Below are positions 2,666-18,523 of a DNA stretch of 37,384 nt, piece by piece (positions within the stretch are counted from its first letter, which is position 1; the number at the start of each line of letters is the position of its first letter). The translations under genes were made by a program, and so were the position numbers. The stretch is from a virus, in the IMG/VR virus record IMGVR_UViG_3300036945_000508, positions 1 to 37,384 of that record, one strand, 5' to 3'. The notes beneath the pieces are model-generated. The model made no database searches. It saw nothing but the letters and a program-made list of their open reading frames with translations, and was not told the DNA's origin.

Positions 2666-3340
2666 CTATAAGAGCATACCCTTTCTCTGCATAAAATCTA
2701 TTGGGTCGCTCGTGTGTTTCTCCATATTGCATTTAGCCCTTAATAATTGGATATTCCAATCTTCGTTTGCTCCACCTAGAACGAGTGGCACTATATGATC
2801 TAAGTGGAAATTGTCTCCCAGATGTTCCCCGCAACATGCGCACCTTCCCTGCTGTAGTTTTAGTAATTTTGCAGATAACCCTTTGGATAAATTTCCTCCA
2901 TTCCCTAGCTTACGGGCATTTCGATTTTGTTTTATTATTCGGCAAGCTTCTGGATTGGCTGTTGCCCATGCTTTTGACTGAGCACGACGTTTCTCTGAAT
3001 TGGCTTTATACCGAGCAGAGTCTGCAGCTCTCATTTTGTCAATATTTGCCGCACGCCATGCCAAATTTGTTGCCTTCACTCTTTCTTTATTATCCACGAA
3101 CCAGGCCGCATATATAACTGGATTCCTTTTCTGTGCCTTTTCTGGATTATTTTTTCTCCATTTAGCCATCTTAACTCTGGATTTTTCTCGATGCTCATTA
3201 CGCCATTCCTCACTTCGTAACTTTTCTTTTTCTGGATTTCTCTCTCGGTACGCGGCAGTCCACGCCTTAGAGCACTCCTTACACCTTCCATTGGCATAAC
3301 GGACGGTATCCGATTGGCACCGATTACAGAATTTCACCAT
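2666..3340 (-). CDS. HNH homing-type endonuclease
   Basis: 224 aa. An N-terminal zinc knuckle (CNRC and CKEC, residues about 5-20) is followed by tandem segments of roughly 18 residues built on NPEK/KxRxxN (about 30-140), likely DNA-reading repeats. A C-terminal HNH nuclease follows, with CACCG near 173-177, HLDHIVPLVLGG near 184-195 and NIQLLRAKCN near 201-210. It is a paralogue of the gene at 17915-18427 and shares domain order and the ending FMQ..G.LL. It sits between the Q-like gene and the pR'-like promoter, a typical site for a selfish free-standing endonuclease. Its Shine-Dalgarno is partly in a possible stem (3350-3391). Confidence 0.88.
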   Translation of the reverse strand: MVKFCNRCQSDTVRYANGRCKECSKAWTAAYRERNPEKEKLRSEEWRNEHREKSRVKMAKWRKNNPEKAQKRNPVIYAAWFVDNKERVKATNLAWRAANIDKMRAADSARYKANSEKRRAQSKAWATANPEACRIIKQNRNARKLGNGGNLSKGLSAKLLKLQQGRCACCGEHLGDNFHLDHIVPLVLGGANEDWNIQLLRAKCNMEKHTSDPIDFMQRKGMLL

Positions 3341-4238: not shown

Positions 4239-4301
4239 ATTTTCTCCTGGCCATGCTCAACAGGTTATACGTCGCTTTTTATGCCTATTTCAAGTTAGGG
4301 G

Positions 4302-4616
4302 TCAGTAAGGTCTCTGGTTTTGCCAGAAGTCACCCGAGTTTTCGTAGTACGCTTCGTTGTCAATGTAAAACCGTTCAGTGTCAGACATAACGCCACCAAG
4401 AGCCGTTGTTTGCCGTTCAATTCCTAACATAAATGGGTCATGTCGGCCTATTGGTAGACCATCATTTTTAGGGAGCCGTCGCAATATGTTATTGTATTTA
4501 TCCACGCTAATTGTGCCGTGATTGCCATTAGCGCAGTAGTAGAATAATCCATATGGCCCTACTCTCGTTTTCATCGCTGTCCCACACTTTAAGCACAGAA
4601 ATTTCTCTCCGCTCAT
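4302..4616 (-). CDS. Zinc-ribbon protein
   Basis: 104 aa. The N-terminal zinc ribbon is CLKC (residues about 8-11) followed by C.NGNH near 28-33, a topoisomerase/TFIIS-like half pair with a histidine. The remainder is polar with many Asp, Asn and Tyr. It overlaps the preceding 52-aa gene by four bases (ATGA). Probably a nucleic-acid-binding accessory protein; family not recognised. Confidence 0.75.
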   Translation of the reverse strand: MSGEKFLCLKCGTAMKTRVGPYGLFYYCANGNHGTISVDKYNNILRRLPKNDGLPIGRHDPFMLGIERQTTALGGVMSDTERFYIDNEAYYENSGDFWQNQRPY

Positions 4617-4771
4617 TTTTTGTCTCCCTCATTGGTGCTTTCTTCTGTTTGCGCCGTCTCGATCAGTTTCCGAGAAAATAAAAATAACGCATTATCAAAA
4701 GCATTTGTCCCTGGTTGTTTTGTCAACAATCCGCACTCCCTTGCGATCTTCCAAATTTCATCATCATTCAT
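4613..4771 (-). CDS. 52-aa hypothetical protein
   Basis: ATG 4769-4771 has GGAAA upstream; the frame runs to TGA 4613-4615, overlapping the next ATG. The product begins MNDDEIWKIARECGLLT. It is helical and acidic, with a short hydrophobic ALFLF core. The start also overlaps the stop of the gene at 4768-4941. It resembles short phage proteins of unknown role. Confidence 0.65.
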   Translation of the reverse strand: MNDDEIWKIARECGLLTKQPGTNAFDNALFLFSRKLIETAQTEESTNEGDKK

Positions 4772-4941
4772 TTTATTTCCTTTGCTTTATCTATCCGTTG
4801 CCGCACCCACTCCGCACCGCCAAGCAGCACCAGTTTTTCACGCTGCGCTATCGTCATACGCAAGGACACAGTTACCGTATCCTCGCCCTGTTTAATAGGC
4901 TTTCGCCCCTGGCCCCTACCGGGGCCGCCCCTTGTTACCAT
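4768..4941 (-). CDS. Small basic DNA-binding-like protein
   Basis: 57 aa from ATG 4941 (a TTG three codons earlier is possible). The start is favoured because it overlaps the upstream stop (ATGGTAA). The N-terminus is an AT-hook-like RGGPGRGQGRKP. It is followed by VTVSLRMTIAQREKLVLLGG, then WVRQRID, a ribbon-helix-helix-like pattern seen in phage Arc/MetJ-type regulators. Likely a small DNA-binding protein. Confidence 0.65.
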   Translation of the reverse strand: MVTRGGPGRGQGRKPIKQGEDTVTVSLRMTIAQREKLVLLGGAEWVRQRIDKAKEIK

Positions 4942-5075
4942 CCCTGCCAATTTCCGTCAACTACACGAACCTGCAAGAAAGACTGCCAACCAGCGCCAAC
5001 CCAATAATAAGCAGTTCTCCATTCGCGTCCATCTTGTCCAACCCATGAAGCGCTGTAATTTGTCTCTGTGTTCAT
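4935..5075 (-). CDS. 46-aa Trp/Tyr-rich small protein
   Basis: A strong site (AAGGGGG) precedes ATG 5075. The product is unusually aromatic, with six Trp and three Tyr in 46 residues, including WVGQDGREWRTAYYWVG. The pattern suggests a small beta-sheet domain. Its stop overlaps the next start. No family recognised. The leader at 5076-5167 separates it from the attC-like element, so it is the first gene after that junction. Confidence 0.65.
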   Translation of the reverse strand: MNTETNYSASWVGQDGREWRTAYYWVGAGWQSFLQVRVVDGNWQGW

Positions 5076-5167
5076 TTTGTCCCCCTTGTGTTGTTTGAGT
5101 GCGTATTGTTATTGTAGTGCTTGTTCAAACAAAAGCAAGGTTTATTTTGTGGTGCGTTATCAATCAC

Positions 5168-5252
5168 CCCTAACAATAAATTCCAGCGGACGGAATTAGT
5201 CGGGCGCTTCGTAGTTAAAAGTTGTACGCCGCCGCTGAATTAACCGTTGGGC
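5168..5252 (+). other. attC-like hairpin element 1
   Basis: On the plus strand CCCTAAC (5168-5174) and GTTGGGC (5246-5252) are the outer cores. Inside, AATTCCAGCGGACGG (5179-5193) pairs with CCGCCGCTGAATT (5229-5241) through AATTC/GAATT, AGCGG/CCGCT and CGG/CCG, leaving a single bulged C and a single bulged A on one arm. This matches integron attC design: YYYAAC/GTTRRR cores, an imperfect stem with extrahelical bases and an unpaired centre. The right core overlaps the 3' end of the minus-strand gene 5240-5527. Confidence 0.6.
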
Positions 5253-5527
5253 GTCATCGCCTCATCCCATGCGCCACGCCACCGAGTTATGAAATCCATC
5301 ACACTTTCCCGGCGAATTAAGTCGTATCCGTCCTTTTCTGTGACAGTCGCAATGCCACACAATTGCGAGGTGAGAGAACACGCGGAGAGGTTGACCGCAA
5401 AAAGCCGTTTTTTCAATGCCTCGTTGTCTCTTTGTAGTTGCGATACCTTGTTTGCCAGCTTGCAAAGTTCCTGCGCGTTTTCAACTTCCCGCTCATTCTT
5501 CGTCTTGTCTCCGTTTTTTGTGGGCAT
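5240..5527 (-). CDS. Coiled-coil small protein
   Basis: 95 aa. The central part (VSQLQRDNEALKKRL) is a clear coiled coil. It continues into a Ser/Cys-rich region and ends TRWRGAWDEAMTPNG. AAAGGA precedes ATG 5527 by seven bases. The leader carries the AACTACAACGAAAGG repeat shared with two other genes. The 3' end lies inside an attC-like core, so the gene looks like cargo of a cassette-type module. Function unknown. Confidence 0.7.
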   Translation of the reverse strand: MPTKNGDKTKNEREVENAQELCKLANKVSQLQRDNEALKKRLFAVNLSACSLTSQLCGIATVTEKDGYDLIRRESVMDFITRWRGAWDEAMTPNG

Positions 5528-5534
5528 GTTCTTT

Positions 5535-5557
5535 CCTTTCGTTGTAGTTGGGCGTCA
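5535..5557 (-). repeat. Leader repeat fused to a GCCCAAC core
   Basis: On the minus strand the stop TGA (5555-5557) is followed at once by CGCCCAAC and then TACAACGAAAGG, the ribosome-binding leader of the next gene. The same TGACGCCCAAC follows the stop at 17278-17280, and a related sequence ends the gene at 5240. The full hairpin arms are missing here, as if two modules had been joined directly. Confidence 0.55.
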
Positions 5558-5806: not shown

Positions 5807-5832
5807 TTCAAATCCTTTCTTCGTTGTAGTTA

Positions 5833-8640: not shown

Positions 8641-8823
8641 CGGTGGACGCACCTAGCCTAACTAGGTGAGCCTTCAGTAGTACCCGTATACGGAGCCACC
8701 ACACCCGCCAGCCTTTCGAGTAATGGGTGCTGGCTTCGCCGCCCACTTGTCCGATGTTCCATACTCTTAACCCCAGTTCGGTATCAGGTAACGGCGCTGG
8801 TGTGGTCTATCATTCGTCCACCG
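8641..8823 (-). ncRNA. Predicted multi-helix structured RNA
   Basis: Five complementary pairs nest without conflict. P1 is 8641-8649 with 8815-8823 (9 bp, CGGTGGACG). P2 is 8698-8705 with 8799-8806 (8 bp, ACCACACC). P3 is 8707-8712 with 8729-8734 (6 bp). P4 is 8737-8741 with 8792-8796 (5 bp). P5 is hairpin 8650-8656 with 8662-8668 (7 bp, CACCTAG). P1 encloses P5 and P2, and P2 encloses P3 and P4, giving two junctions with P5 abutting P1. The region is the only sizeable gap (8607-8896) in the otherwise gapless leftward operon. No T-run follows, so it is not a simple terminator. It could be a trans-acting RNA, a processing signal or a cis-regulator. Phage antisense RNA families such as C4 are the first thing to compare. 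Confidence 0.65.
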
Positions 8824-8896
8824 CTTCCTGTGTTGCTGGCTCCCTCTAACCGGGACTTCATGCCGCGCCAAGGTTCGGTGCGCGGCTCCATGCTGC

Positions 8897-14044: not shown

Positions 14045-14127
14045 AAACCCTGCGCGACTTTATCTACTGGCGCCAGCGCGGTTATACGGTGCGTGCGGCA
14101 TGGAAGCTGGCGCGGATCACCCTGTAG
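14041..14127 (+). CDS. 28-aa basic microprotein
   Basis: ATG overlaps the previous stop; TAG at 14125-14127 precedes AGGAGG of the next gene. Product MKTLRDFIYWRQRGYTVR then AAWKLARITL is a basic amphipathic peptide of a kind often annotated next to phage recombination genes. Role unknown. Confidence 0.6.
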   Translation: MKTLRDFIYWRQRGYTVRAAWKLARITL

Positions 14128-14136
14128 GAGGCAATC

Positions 14137-14388
14137 ATGGGACGAATGTCGGAAGAATGGCAGGAGCAGCAGGAGCAGGAAGCGCAAGACGATAGCGAGT
14201 GCATGTGGTGGCAACAGCAAGGCAGGCAACACGAATTTAACGAACTTGAGAATGGAGAACGAAATGAGCATATCGACAATTGTATTGGGGGAATCGGGGA
14301 CGGGAAAGACCGCCAGCCTTCGGAATTTAACGACGGAAGGCACGCTGCTGATCCAGGCAATCAAGAAGCCCTTGCCGTTCCGTTCTAA
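14137..14388 (+). CDS. Gln/Glu-rich small protein overlapping the ATPase gene
   Basis: 83 aa with one of the best ribosome-binding sites here (AGGAGG). Begins MGRMSEEWQEQQEQEAQDD, then CMWWQQQGRQHEFNELENG. The last 125 bases run in another frame over the Sak4-type gene, which is unusual. The first 43 codons look coding; the tail may be fortuitous, or the gene may have lost an earlier stop. Confidence 0.5.
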   Translation: MGRMSEEWQEQQEQEAQDDSECMWWQQQGRQHEFNELENGERNEHIDNCIGGIGDGKDRQPSEFNDGRHAADPGNQEALAVPF

Positions 14389-14917
14389 TGGATGGGGGTA
14401 TTTCAGCAAAGAAAACACATCTGGCAATATCTTCGTCAAGGATGACAAGGATTCGATCATTCACTTGATGCACAAAACCACACGCAAGGTCATCGTGATT
14501 GACGATGTGCAATACATCATGGCGAATGAATACATGCGCCGCAGTCACGAAACTGGCTATCAAAAGTTCACCGATATCGGCAAAGGCATCTGGGAAATCA
14601 TGAACGCGGCGTCATCGCTGCCTGACGATGTTCGCGTTTACCTGCTCTGGCACAACCAGACCGATGAATCCGGCAATAGTAAAGCAAAGAGCATCGGGAA
14701 AATGCTGGATGAAAAAATCACCATCGAGGGCATGGTCAGCATCGTATTGCGCACCGCCATCGTCAACGGGAATTACCTGTTCGCTACTAAGAACAGCGGC
14801 CACGATACCACCAAGACGCCAATGGGGCTGTTTGAGGACGAAACCATCCCGAACGACCTCGCTAGTGTGGACGCAGCAATCCAAGAGTATTACCAACTCG
14901 GCCAGAAAGCGGCCTGA
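14264..14917 (+). CDS. Sak4-type RecA-like ATPase
   Basis: 217 aa from ATG 14264, which has GGAGAACG upstream. Walker A GESGTGKT at residues 9-16, Walker B VIVIDDVQ at 76-83, then MRRSHETGYQKFTDIG and a switch region YLLWHNQTDES near 125-135. This is the AAA_24/Sak4 family, phage strand-exchange or annealing ATPases that work with a cognate SSB for recombination. The next gene is an SSB-like protein, matching the known pairing. It acts on single-stranded DNA in the cytoplasm. Confidence 0.88.
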   Translation: MSISTIVLGESGTGKTASLRNLTTEGTLLIQAIKKPLPFRSNGWGYFSKENTSGNIFVKDDKDSIIHLMHKTTRKVIVIDDVQYIMANEYMRRSHETGYQKFTDIGKGIWEIMNAASSLPDDVRVYLLWHNQTDESGNSKAKSIGKMLDEKITIEGMVSIVLRTAIVNGNYLFATKNSGHDTTKTPMGLFEDETIPNDLASVDAAIQEYYQLGQKAA

Positions 14918-14938
14918 ACTTAACGAACGGAGAATGAA

Positions 14939-15574
14939 ATGAACTACAACCTAGACCCTAAAGCAGCATCAGCAGCCGATGTTATTTTCTCAAAGATTGA
15001 GCAAAAAGGAAAATATCTTGGAGTGCTTACCCGCGCCGAACCTGTGACCAGCAAGAAGGGAACGACCGGAGTTGATCTGTCATTTCGTGCCAATTCTGGC
15101 GAAACCGCCGACTACCTGACATTGTGGACGAACAACACAGACGGCAAACAGTTGATGGGATTTAACACCCTGATGGCGATCATGACATGCCTGCGCGTCA
15201 AGACCATAAACGCGGTCGATGGCGAGATTGAAAAGTACGACCAGGACCAAGCCAAGCGCGTGAAAGTCACCGTGCCGCTGTTCAAAGAGTTGATGAACAA
15301 GCCGATTGGGCTGCTGTTGGCGATGGAAGAATACCCGAAGAATGCAGGCGGCACGGGATGGAAGCCGGTTATTTCGGCGGCGTTTGATGAAAACGAATTC
15401 ACCGCAAGCGAGATTTTGAGCCAAGCAAGGACGCAAGAACTGCTCGGAAAGATGGTAATGGCGCTACATGACAAGCCGTTGAAAGGATCTTCACCTGCTC
15501 CCGCGCAAAATCACGGAGCGCCCAGCACAGGTAGCGACTTTGACGACTTCAAGGACGACATACCTTTTAACTAA
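14939..15574 (+). CDS. Single-stranded DNA-binding-like protein
   Basis: 211 aa. The body is beta-rich with an OB-fold-like pattern (KGKYLGVLTRAEPVTSK, then GVDLSFRANSG and LTLWTNNTDG). A flexible Pro/Ala/Ser linker (residues about 180-200) leads to the acidic tip DDFKDDIPFN, the classic SSB tail that recruits partner proteins. It follows the Sak4-type ATPase. CGGAGAAT precedes the ATG. Probably coats ssDNA for recombination and replication. Confidence 0.82.
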   Translation: MNYNLDPKAASAADVIFSKIEQKGKYLGVLTRAEPVTSKKGTTGVDLSFRANSGETADYLTLWTNNTDGKQLMGFNTLMAIMTCLRVKTINAVDGEIEKYDQDQAKRVKVTVPLFKELMNKPIGLLLAMEEYPKNAGGTGWKPVISAAFDENEFTASEILSQARTQELLGKMVMALHDKPLKGSSPAPAQNHGAPSTGSDFDDFKDDIPFN

Positions 15575-15613
15575 GAGGATGCCACCTCGATAAAAACAGA
15601 ATCAAACTTAACC

Positions 15614-15635
15614 GGCGCAGCCTAACCGCTGCGCC
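15614..15635 (+). promoter_or_regulatory. Hairpin beside the Gp157-like ribosome-binding site
   Basis: GGCGCAGC (15614-15621) pairs perfectly with GCTGCGCC (15628-15635) around a 6-nt loop, three bases before the AGGAGG of the gene at 15649. No T-run follows, so it is not a terminator. It may stabilise mRNA or tune translation between the SSB-like and Gp157-like genes. Confidence 0.6.
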
Positions 15636-15648
15636 ACAGGAGGGCATC

Positions 15649-16149
15649 ATGAATTTATTTGAACTGGTAGGCGAACGCCTAGCCCTGCAAAACAAGTTGG
15701 AAGTGCTGAATTTTGACGATGAATGTATCCTCGACACGCTGGAAGGCAACAGCGCAGAACTTGCTGCCAAGGTGGAAAATTATGGCTTCGTAATCAAAAA
15801 CCGCATGGCTTTCGTTGACGCTATGGCCGTCGAGATAGACCGCATGATGGCGCGGCGTGAAGCAGAATTGAACCGCATTGACGCTATCGAAAAATGGCTG
15901 CTTGAAAGCATGGTCGCCTGTAATTACACGAAAATGGAAGGGCCAGCATTCACCATTTCCGTGCAGAAAAATCCCGCCAAGGTTGAAGTGCTGGAAGAGT
16001 CGGCCGTTCCCAAAGATTACTGGAAAACACCCGAACCAAAGCCGCCCGTTTCTTCGCCAGACAAGAAGAAAATACTCGACGCCATGAAAGCAGGGGAAGA
16101 TGTTGCAGGATGCAGAATAACGCGCACAGCAAGATTGGTCATAAAATGA
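15649..16149 (+). CDS. Siphovirus Gp157-like protein
   Basis: 166 aa, the typical length. The N-terminal half is helical (LALQNKLEVLNFDDE, then ALVDAM-type heptads and MMARREAELNRIDAIEKWL). The C-terminal half is the conserved beta module: FTISVQKNPAKVEVL near 102-116, PKDYWKTPEPKP near 121-132, then DKKKILDAMKAGEDVAGCRI. This pattern identifies the Gp157 family (PF05565), which lies near SSB and recombination genes and was linked to phage resistance in Streptococcus. Its biochemical role is unclear. Confidence 0.88.
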   Translation: MNLFELVGERLALQNKLEVLNFDDECILDTLEGNSAELAAKVENYGFVIKNRMAFVDAMAVEIDRMMARREAELNRIDAIEKWLLESMVACNYTKMEGPAFTISVQKNPAKVEVLEESAVPKDYWKTPEPKPPVSSPDKKKILDAMKAGEDVAGCRITRTARLVIK

Positions 16150-16512: not shown

Positions 16513-16861
16513 CCAATGGATGAAAAAAAGGGTACCCGCATACCGAAAGGGTGATGACTCAATGCTCGTGCGCGGGATGAGAGAATGCTGGGACGCCGGG
16601 GTGAAAGCGGGTAGCGAAACGAAGGTGGAAAAAATTGAAAAAGGACGGTGCGGAAATTTTTGCGAGGCGTGCGCTCGCCGTGATGATGAAATAACACGGC
16701 TACGATCTTTGATTAAAGAGGCGCACACAACCATGAATCATGCTGAGGTTTTCATCGGTAGCAGAGAAAAAATGCACTCGACTGGCGAGGAGTTGTACAG
16801 AGAACTTTTGTACCAACTAGAAGCGGAACTAGAGTTGAACGTAAAGTTAGTGGTGCCATGA
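16502..16861 (+). CDS. MTFxxW-type protein with Cys pair and coiled coil
   Basis: 119 aa from ATG 16502 (GGAGG upstream). MTFDQWMKKRVPAYRKGDDS, then a short helix, then CGNFCEACARRDDEITRLRS (about 52-71), where a zinc knuckle leads into a coiled coil through the end. The N-terminus matches the leftward-block protein at 5888-6124, suggesting shuffling of domains between operons. Confidence 0.7.
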   Translation: MTFDQWMKKRVPAYRKGDDSMLVRGMRECWDAGVKAGSETKVEKIEKGRCGNFCEACARRDDEITRLRSLIKEAHTTMNHAEVFIGSREKMHSTGEELYRELLYQLEAELELNVKLVVP

Positions 16862-17076
16862 TAAAGCCGATTGTTTACACGATGAGTAGATGCAAAAAGG
16901 ATGATGAATTGTATGGGCCTTTACACGCATCTTCAGACGGTGAAAATACACTCTGTGGGCAATCCTCAGATGAGAATTGGTGGATTGTTACAAATGGGTT
17001 TGATGGGGTTGTTACGTGCAAAAAGTGCATAAAGATTAATTCCGCTGTTGATACGAAGAAAGGATTGGGCTGGTAA
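16858..17076 (+). CDS. Small Cys-containing protein
   Basis: 72 aa, ATGA overlap at the start. MIKPIVYTMSRCKKDDELYG, then an NTLCGQSSDENWWIVTN stretch and CKKCIK near 53-58. A probable single zinc site within a small beta domain. The stop TAA starts the repeated leader (GGTAACTACAACGAAAGG), so the gene abuts a module boundary. Unrecognised. Confidence 0.7.
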   Translation: MIKPIVYTMSRCKKDDELYGPLHASSDGENTLCGQSSDENWWIVTNGFDGVVTCKKCIKINSAVDTKKGLGW

Positions 17077-17097
17077 CTACAACGAAAGGATTTAAAA

Positions 17098-17280
17098 ATG
17101 GCTACGACAAGGCAAATTGCTGGATGGGCAAAAACGGTTGAAAAAAGAATGGCCGGAGTTGCTAAAGAGCGCGACAAACTCGACGAGACAATTGCAGAAC
17201 TGGAGCAATTGCGAGGGAACTGTAGAGAGGCATACGACAACCTGCAAATAGCGCGGGACGCGCTGAGCGAAATGGTTTGA
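17098..17280 (+). CDS. Coiled-coil small protein
   Basis: 60 aa. Nearly all coiled coil: EKRMAGVAKERDKLDETIAE, then LEQLRGNCREAYDNLQ. The leader carries AACTACAACGAAAGGA, shared with the leftward coiled-coil gene at 5240. Its TGA is followed immediately by CGCCCAAC of the attC-like element at 17282. It thus has the same leader/coiled-coil/core arrangement as the gene at 5240-5527. Confidence 0.65.
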   Translation: MATTRQIAGWAKTVEKRMAGVAKERDKLDETIAELEQLRGNCREAYDNLQIARDALSEMV

Positions 17281-17281
17281 C

Positions 17282-17344
17282 GCCCAACGGCTGAATTCAG
17301 GGGCGGGCGGCTTTTCGCCCGGGCGGTGGAATGAATTGTTGGGC
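17282..17344. other. attC-like hairpin element 3
   Basis: GCCCAAC (17282-17288) and GTTGGGC (17338-17344) are perfect complements fitting RYYYAAC and GTTRRRY. With one flanking base the arms are 8 bp. Inner AATTCA (17294-17299) pairs with TGAATT (17332-17337), with five unpaired bases on one side only. A GC-rich tip CGGGCG/CGCCCG closes a short loop. At 63 bp it is in the size range of integron attC sites. It lies between two plus-strand genes, directly after a stop codon. Confidence 0.65.
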
Positions 17345-17373
17345 GGCACTTTTTCCGAAGCGAAAGGAATGTG

Positions 17374-17802
17374 ATGAGTGAAGTTCTTGATGTGCGCGGT
17401 GGCGCCAGGATTCGGGAGATTCGAGCGATGGCGGGACGGGCGATGCTGGACGGCCCGCACGACTACATGACCGACGAACTGGAAGGCCCACTGCTGGACT
17501 TGGCCGTAGCGAAAGCTGTGGGCTTGGCTGCGGTGATTCACAAGGTGGATAACGCCGTCGAGCCGTTCTTCGAGTGCTGCGTGCTGAACGAGAGTGGCCG
17601 GTTGCAGTACCAGTTCATCCCATCGCGCGGGTGGTGCCAAGGAGGCCCGCTGGTAGAGGAACATCGAATCAGCCTCACCGAACGCGGAGACAGGTGGGCG
17701 GCTGACGTGCGGGGCGGCTGGGCGATCGAGGCCGCCACCCCGCTGCTGGCGGCTATGCGCGCACTGGTGGCCCGGAAGATGGGTGCCACGGTGCGCATGT
17801 GA
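17374..17802 (+). CDS. ninX: NinX-like phage protein (DUF2591)
   Basis: 142 aa from ATG 17374 (AAAGGA upstream). The NinX signature runs through LEGPLLDLAVAKAVGL (residues about 36-51), FIPSRGWCQGGPLVEEHRIS (about 77-96) and ATPLLAAMRALVARKMG (about 121-137). NinX belongs to the nin-region accessory set of lambdoid phages; its function is unknown. Here it is alone, as the last gene of the rightward block, behind an attC-like element and before a convergent HNH gene, so it may have arrived as a separate module. An N-terminal 25-residue extension is unusual. Confidence 0.8.
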   Translation: MSEVLDVRGGARIREIRAMAGRAMLDGPHDYMTDELEGPLLDLAVAKAVGLAAVIHKVDNAVEPFFECCVLNESGRLQYQFIPSRGWCQGGPLVEEHRISLTERGDRWAADVRGGWAIEAATPLLAAMRALVARKMGATVRM

Positions 17803-17867
17803 CGCCGAACGTAGCTAGGCATCACTTTTGACGTATAACCTGGGAATGGCCACTAAACGCGGCGTCA
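17800..17867. repeat. Inverted repeat between convergent genes
   Basis: TGACGCCG (17800-17807) and CGGCGTCA (17860-17867) are perfect 8-bp arms separated by 52 bases. The left arm contains the NinX stop. Its start recalls TGACGCCCAAC after other stops, but one base differs (CGCCGAAC) and no GTTRRRY partner is present. It may act as a weak bidirectional barrier. Confidence 0.45.
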
Positions 17868-17915
17868 CTACCAGCGATAACCGACTCCAACGCCAGCGAA
17901 GTAATCCCGATCAAC
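17868..17915 (-). pseudogene. Remnant second 3' end of the lysis-region gene
   Basis: Directly after the HNH stop the minus strand reads, in another frame, VDRDYFAGVGVGYRW then TAG. This mirrors the C-terminus of the protein at 18524-19063 (SDRSGLVGGTLRYEW). It appears to be the original 3' end of that gene, left behind when the HNH element inserted and supplied a replacement end. Confidence 0.6.
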
Positions 17916-18427
17916 TAAAGTAAGAAGCCTCGGGATTGCATAAATTCTACTGGATGTTTCGCATGCTTTTGCAGGTTGCATGTTGGACAAAGTAACTGAA
18001 TATTATCATCAGTATTTGTCCCGCCTAGTGCGATTGGCATATTGTGGTCAAGGTGATAACCGGCTGATAAATCTTTCCCACAACACGCACACTTTCCGCG
18101 CTGTAGCTTTAGAAGCTTTTCGGCCAATCCCTTGGATAACTTTCCGCTTGCAGACTCTTTTACTCTACGATTATGCACATAGATGCGGCAATCTTCGGGG
18201 TTAGCCCTGTCCCACGCGGCTTTGTATGCCTTCACCTTCTCCGGGTTGGCTGCTCTATACGCAATACCTTTAGCAATCTGTGCTTCTGGGTTGGAGGCAC
18301 GATACTTGGCTTGATACGCGATTTCCTTATCAGGATTTTTCTTCCGCCACTTCATTTTGCGGATTGTGTCGCATGACTTGCAATACCTACCTACGAAAGA
18401 TGCGCCACACTTTTTGCATGTTTTCAT
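17915..18427 (-). CDS. HNH homing-type endonuclease (paralogue 2)
   Basis: 170 aa. N-terminal zinc knuckles (CKKCGASF then CKSC, residues about 4-19), shorter NPEK-type repeats (about 30-80) and a C-terminal HNH domain: CACCGKDL near 112-119, YHLDHNMPIALGG near 123-135 and NIQLLCPTCN near 142-151. Same architecture and ending as the gene at 2666-3340 but with fewer repeats. Inserted at the end of the lysis region. A 10-bp stem (18435-18480) buries its Shine-Dalgarno, the translation-silencing trick known for T4 I-TevI. Confidence 0.88.
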   Translation of the reverse strand: MKTCKKCGASFVGRYCKSCDTIRKMKWRKKNPDKEIAYQAKYRASNPEAQIAKGIAYRAANPEKVKAYKAAWDRANPEDCRIYVHNRRVKESASGKLSKGLAEKLLKLQRGKCACCGKDLSAGYHLDHNMPIALGGTNTDDNIQLLCPTCNLQKHAKHPVEFMQSRGFLL

Positions 18428-18434
18428 TTGATAC

Positions 18435-18480
18435 CCCTAGCCGGTAATTGATTGTTGTCGGTAATCCGCTCCGGCTAGGG
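18435..18480 (-). promoter_or_regulatory. Stem occluding the HNH ribosome-binding site
   Basis: CCCTAGCCGG (18435-18444) and CCGGCTAGGG (18471-18480) pair perfectly over 10 bp with a 26-nt loop. The AGGGG before the HNH ATG is part of the stem, so initiation from read-through mRNA would be blocked unless the stem opens. Confidence 0.7.
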
Positions 18481-18523
18481 AAACGGAAAGGCTGGCCAGC
18501 CCTGTCCCGACCTGTTAATTATA

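Follow-up and report, generated by a model that had tools for sequence, protein, structure and literature searches.

The closest described counterparts of the locus studied here are the attC sites in phages reported by Qi et al. 2023 (PMC9892861), where five of the six sites recombined with IntI1, and the CALINs in phages of the same study (PMC9892861). We analysed a stretch of viral DNA of 37,384 nucleotides (the IMG/VR record IMGVR_UViG_3300036945_000508, hereafter the window), which resembles these CALINs in that attC sites and cassettes are located in a phage without an integrase. It also resembles one of their cases, MW202573, in that both contain a P22-type portal and Gp157, and the two best attC matches in MW202573 are located just after Gp157. 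The swapping of small accessory genes between phages, for example methyltransferases, is usually ascribed to illegitimate or homologous recombination.

An integron recombination site in a phage genome

The first-pass annotation of the window had described an attC-like hairpin between two accessory genes. The hairpin is located where it was placed, with the cores GCCCAAC (17282-17288) and GTTGGGC (17338-17344) on the plus strand, outer pairing that reaches 8 bp with one flanking base and a total length of 63 bp, and it starts two bases past the TGA stop codon at 17278-17280. To assess the identity of the site without circularity, attC sites were collected by pattern from bacterial genomes and 68 of these were aligned to build a covariance model, R1, whose seed patterns are biased toward the attC type of Xanthomonadales/Burkholderiales. 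This check, which the annotation had proposed, gave a strong match of 38.3 bits (E 1.7e-9), the top-scoring attC in the window. The cores satisfy RYYYAAC and GTTRRRY, and the L''/L' stem contains an extrahelical base (ATT-C-CA/TG-AAT) along with central spacers that are unpaired, as in attC sites. Folded separately as single-stranded DNA, both strands are more stable than shuffled sequences (z about -2.65), and the plus strand, which is the bottom strand of the attC site, is more stable than the minus strand (-19.0 versus -15.8 kcal/mol). An intrinsic terminator was considered as a candidate at this position and rejected, as none was predicted in 16800-18500 and the site does not combine a stem and a T run in the manner of such a terminator.

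On the evidence of its sequence and fold, the segment 17282-17344 of this phage is a true integron recombination site, and more than a chance resemblance. Its direction had escaped the annotation: reading it as attC places it on the minus strand (GCCCAAC-AATTC-ATT(C)CA...TGAAT-TCAGCC-GTTGGGC), where it opposes the genes on the plus strand. The proposal of a captured cassette is supported, with the difference that the cassette of this site is on the NinX side (17288-17809) and does not include the upstream gene. The features of this region are:

14093-16149, plus strand: genes for a Sak4-like single-stranded DNA annealing protein, SSB and a Gp157/Mu Gam-like protein, upstream of cassette A (PHROGs, tblastn, annotation)
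17098-17280, plus strand: small gene ending just before attC A (ORF list), with the leader AACTACAACGAAAGGA at 17075-17090
17282-17344, minus strand: attC site A, with R'' at 17338-17344 and R' at 17282-17288 (R1, 38.3 bits; folds as DNA)
17288-17809, minus strand: proposed cassette A, between the G|TT crossover points, with the NinX gene antisense to attC
17371-17802, plus strand: gene of cassette A, Phage_P22_NinX family (PF10765, phrog_4389; Pfam E 1.1e-13, PHROG E 3.1e-25)
17804-17810, minus strand: far-end core of cassette A, GTTCGGC, a simple site without hairpin (GTTGGGCGTCA motif scan, one mismatch)

Cassette A is bounded by the direct repeat TGACGCC[C/G]AACG at 17278-17289 and 17800-17811, and its GC content is 64% versus 51% upstream and 53% downstream, which is in the top 0.35% of windows. 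The ATG of the NinX-family gene may be at 17374. The far-end core is one base off GTTRRRY, and the GTTGGGCGTCA scan of the window gave six matches versus 0.8 expected. The R'' core of site A pairs at 4/4 positions with its own hairpin and at 3/4 with the far end, which counts against the cassette reading at this site. The DNA of 16800-18500 had no match among 50,697 phage records, and thus no empty site was found for cassette A; nor were close relatives of the window with an empty site found.

For the NinX protein, no close relative was obtained from plasmids, nor from viral contigs by pattern scan, and only one marginal match from 395 genomes of the family of a Lysobacter, while two cyanophage records match over 45% of its length. 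The exact subtype AACAATTCATTCC...TCAGCCGTTGG is absent from genome_contigs, and a similar pattern in viral contigs was detected only in L003/L018. The gene order of the 14093-16149 block is similar in the phage record L010, and in MW202573 Gp157 precedes the attC sites. No significant attC match was obtained in seven relatives that have the SSB gene in common with the window, and none was located within about 7 kb of the RecE-bearing loci in 13 genomes of the family of the Lysobacter.

A second site in the window

Site A is not the only attC in the window; a second one at 5168-5252 had been overlooked. The features around it are:

4295-5246, plus strand: proposed cassette B, with GTTAGGGG (4294-4301) and attC B as its boundaries
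4302-4616, 4613-4771, 4768-4941 and 4935-5075, minus strand: the four small ORFs of cassette B
5168-5252, plus strand: attC site B (R1 with default filters, 31.4 bits, E 2e-6), inverted, opposing minus-strand genes
5240-5527, minus strand: gene reading into attC B, with its stop inside the site (...PNG*; ORF list, core scan)
5547-5553, plus strand: simple core GTTGGGC(GTCA), lacking a hairpin, where the leader of gene 5240-5527 has its 5' end

The score of site B refers to the full site in the default-filter run, while with filters off only a partial match of 14.3 bits was obtained. The sequence (CCCTAAC ... ATT-C-CAGCGG-A-CGG/CCG-CCGCTG-AAT ... GTTGGGC) has, on inspection by eye, both extrahelical bases as well as a variable loop of some length, and its cores CCCTAAC/GTTGGGC fit the consensus except for the first base, which is C instead of R. 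The R'' side of cassette B, CCCCTAAC, complements the far end GTTAGGGG at 8/8 positions and not the hairpin R', GTTGGGC.

Some other elements recur in the two regions. The 16-base leader AACTACAACGAAAGGA is identical at 5534-5549 (minus strand) and 17075-17090 (plus strand), where it precedes two distinct small genes of opposite operons, and a third copy with three mismatches is located at 5816-5831; the leader may be the mark of an exchange module of another kind. The proteins encoded at 2666-3340 and 17915-18427 (both minus strand) are related, with about 40% identity; each attC region has one of them at a distance of no more than about 2 kb, and the one at 17915-18427 is an HNH endonuclease.

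In most of the phage records, attC sites point opposite to their genes

To compare gene and attC directions, we established which strand is the top strand of attC in bacteria, using the model and ORF caller that were also applied to the phages. The phage set consisted of pattern scans of viral contigs plus MW202573, with independent records counted, and gene strands were taken from a simple ORF caller, backed by PHROG hits. Inverted attC sites were identified in 20 independent phage records, including the window, versus six with the canonical direction, including TJE1, while the bacterial loci comprised 132 canonical and 13 others (phage versus bacteria, Fisher p 1.3e-12). The gene direction equalled the attC direction in 106/119 bacterial loci from the genome_contigs scan and in 26/30 loci from the family of an Ottowia MAG, where two of the four exceptions resemble class 1 integrons misjudged by the ORF overlap rule. 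Both attC sites in the window oppose their genes and differ from the same-direction arrangement usual for a cassette, as do those in 19 further phage records. MW202573 is itself inverted. The canonical counter-examples in the phage set (TJE1, L005, L009, L014/L015, L150 and L154) were retained; the record L014/L015 (IMGVR_UViG_2834908352_000001), classed as viral, contains a real integron, which has intI and a canonical array.

In many of the phage records, PHROG matches on neighbouring genes back both the phage identity and the gene strand. L152 (6391-10049) and L153 (21-2913) each contain nine or more inverted attC sites, in most cases with one or two small genes between them. Defining a CALIN as at least two clustered attC sites without intI, the relatives L010, L151, L152 and L153 carry CALINs, while the two single sites of the window are about 12 kb apart. 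Among isolated phages, the attC type of R1 was confined to P1 carrying class 1 integrons and to one Salmonella record. Gene stops fall within the following site or abut it, at three positions (-2, 5 and 12, one per frame), so that an inverted site is able to terminate translation in all three frames. These arrays are a recurring family of integrase-less phage gene-cassette arrays in which attC points opposite to the genes, and the first-pass annotation had missed that site A typifies this repeated arrangement.

Cassette ends and exchange between phages

Once cassettes are integrated in an array, the final bases of an R' core are part of the cassette that follows, and the R'' of a mobile cassette is therefore expected to be complementary to the core at the far end of that same mobile cassette. 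Among the phage arrays, R'' complements its own far-end core at a mean of 3.51 of 4 positions (31/45 perfect), and its hairpin partner at a mean of only 2.13 (1/45 perfect; shuffle mean 2.23), the excess of own-end over hairpin-end complementarity being significant in a sign test (p 4e-8). The bacterial integrons show own-end complementarity in the same direction. This signature is seen across the set and in cassette B, while cassette A reaches only 3/4. In the 69 sites of the phage set, 91% of cells are paired and there are 198 double-sided changes versus 57 in shuffles; covariation is strong in the inner stem, and pairing often breaks down at the outermost positions, as predicted for shuffled cassettes and opposite to what a terminator hairpin would show.

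Movement as a unit bounded by G|TT is seen in two pairs of phages, for cassettes other than those of the window. L008 and L018 have one cassette in common, which is 274 bp long and 100% identical from GTT to GTT, with unrelated flanks, and in a similar case L004 and L020 have another cassette in common, at 88.8%. The cargo of the other phage cassettes includes N6/N4 DNA methyltransferases and a gp49/66 protein. Judging from these sequence comparisons, the phage units are cassettes assembled by site-specific recombination at G|TT, and not terminators.

Source of the integrase and proposed mechanism

In agreement with the first-pass annotation, the window contains no match to the integron integrase model TIGR02249, and such matches were obtained in 0/20 inverted records. 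A complete integron has intI and attI, and neither the window nor any inverted record contains intI. Since the phages have no integrase, a host integron probably provides it in trans. attC sites of the R1 type are present in 162/401 sampled genomes of the Ottowia MAG's family. A Betaproteobacteria-1 RNA (RF02932) at 8703-8828 on the minus strand (74.7 bits) suggests a betaproteobacterial host for the phage. An abiF RNA (RF03085) was also matched at 2239-2301 on the minus strand, with 39 bits, just above the gathering score.

We consider it probable (roughly 0.8) that the window is from a phage with a P22-type portal that carries integron gene cassettes, built at G|TT of the folded attC strand by a host integrase acting in trans. 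It would carry a NinX cassette ending at the attC at 17282-17344 and a second cassette ending at the attC at 5168-5252, each the product of site-specific recombination of the integron type, with G|TT in a folded attC strand as the crossover point and with an integrase that most likely comes from a host integron. The unit of the phage operon would be a 5' attC hairpin, a ribosome site and a 3' gene, whose stop is often placed in or against the next site. The attC sites in the phages may still be active.

Only the bottom strand of attC is efficiently recombined, and in genes antisense to attC this recombinogenic strand is the coding strand. The inversion could be explained if the coding strand is exposed in transcription, and if it is placed on the lagging-strand template where replication is co-directional. 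In Vibrio cholerae, bottom strands on the lagging template lead to higher cassette excision (PMC11023631). The inversion might alternatively be due to better expression or to a founder pool of cassettes in phages. A broader reading, which we put forward tentatively as possible rather than probable, is that phages keep a shared pool of accessory cassettes mobilised by host integrases, in which inversion exposes the recombinogenic strand in single-stranded form within the operons; the phage array would then be the rapidly shuffling equivalent of the stable integron of bacteria.

Alternative explanations

The sites could instead be inert remnants of host integron fragments that were taken up by illegitimate recombination, as has been proposed for some phages by Qi et al. 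2023 (PMC9892861). Each site of the window has a single cassette, cassette A is degenerate at its far end and no integrase is present, all of which fit such an origin. However, arrays of up to nine cassettes recur in unrelated phages, the cassettes complement their own ends, an identical single cassette is found in two phages, and a captured host fragment would be expected to retain the canonical gene orientation. We consider inert remnants unlikely.

Slightly less likely still is that the genes are shuffled by single-strand annealing by the phage (Sak4/RecT), or by another recombinase, with attC-like hairpins serving as short homology. The arrays of the window, L010 and L151 do adjoin genes for Sak4, SSB, RecT or RecE, but the junctions are located exactly at GTT, whereas annealing would cut anywhere in the roughly 60 bp of similarity, and the cassette-specific complementarity of the ends is preserved. 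It is very improbable that the hairpins are conserved transcription terminators or mRNA hairpins that merely resemble attC, to which the GC-rich stem and a TTTTT a few bases past site A could point: site A matches attC at E 1.7e-9, and the outer arms pair between the two ends of each cassette, not within the hairpin. The annotation had named the lack of an attC model hit, together with a conserved terminator in related phages, as what would speak against attC; the model hit is strong, and the hairpins in related phages are instead placed between different cassettes, with complementarity of the cassette ends.

Comparison with known systems

The reading as integron cassettes implies a site-specific route for the exchange of phage genes, with a readable signature in many uncultivated phages and driven by an enzyme that the phage does not carry, which links the flow of phage accessory genes to host integrons. 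A cassette pool with reversed polarity also offers integron researchers a means to test how strand exposure controls cassette mobility.

The sedentary chromosomal integrons of Xanthomonadaceae/Burkholderiales share their attC sequence type and cassette-end signature with the phage arrays, but differ in that cassette and attC are co-directional in 132/145 bacterial loci, and in that the phages have no intI. Insertion of one cassette with a single attC at a secondary GTT site, attG, is expected to give one attC and one simple core, and cassette A, with one attC and one simple core, may resemble insertions of this type. In the literature searched, with subscription papers and preprints outside its scope, there was no description of systematic inversion or of cassette exchange between phages. 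In Qi et al. 2023 (PMC9892861), the arrays of TJE1 and PH101 were called typical, and systematic inversion, single sites and inter-phage exchange were not described. While attC sites in phages have thus already been published (PMC9892861), their systematic inversion and the exchange of cassettes between phages look new.
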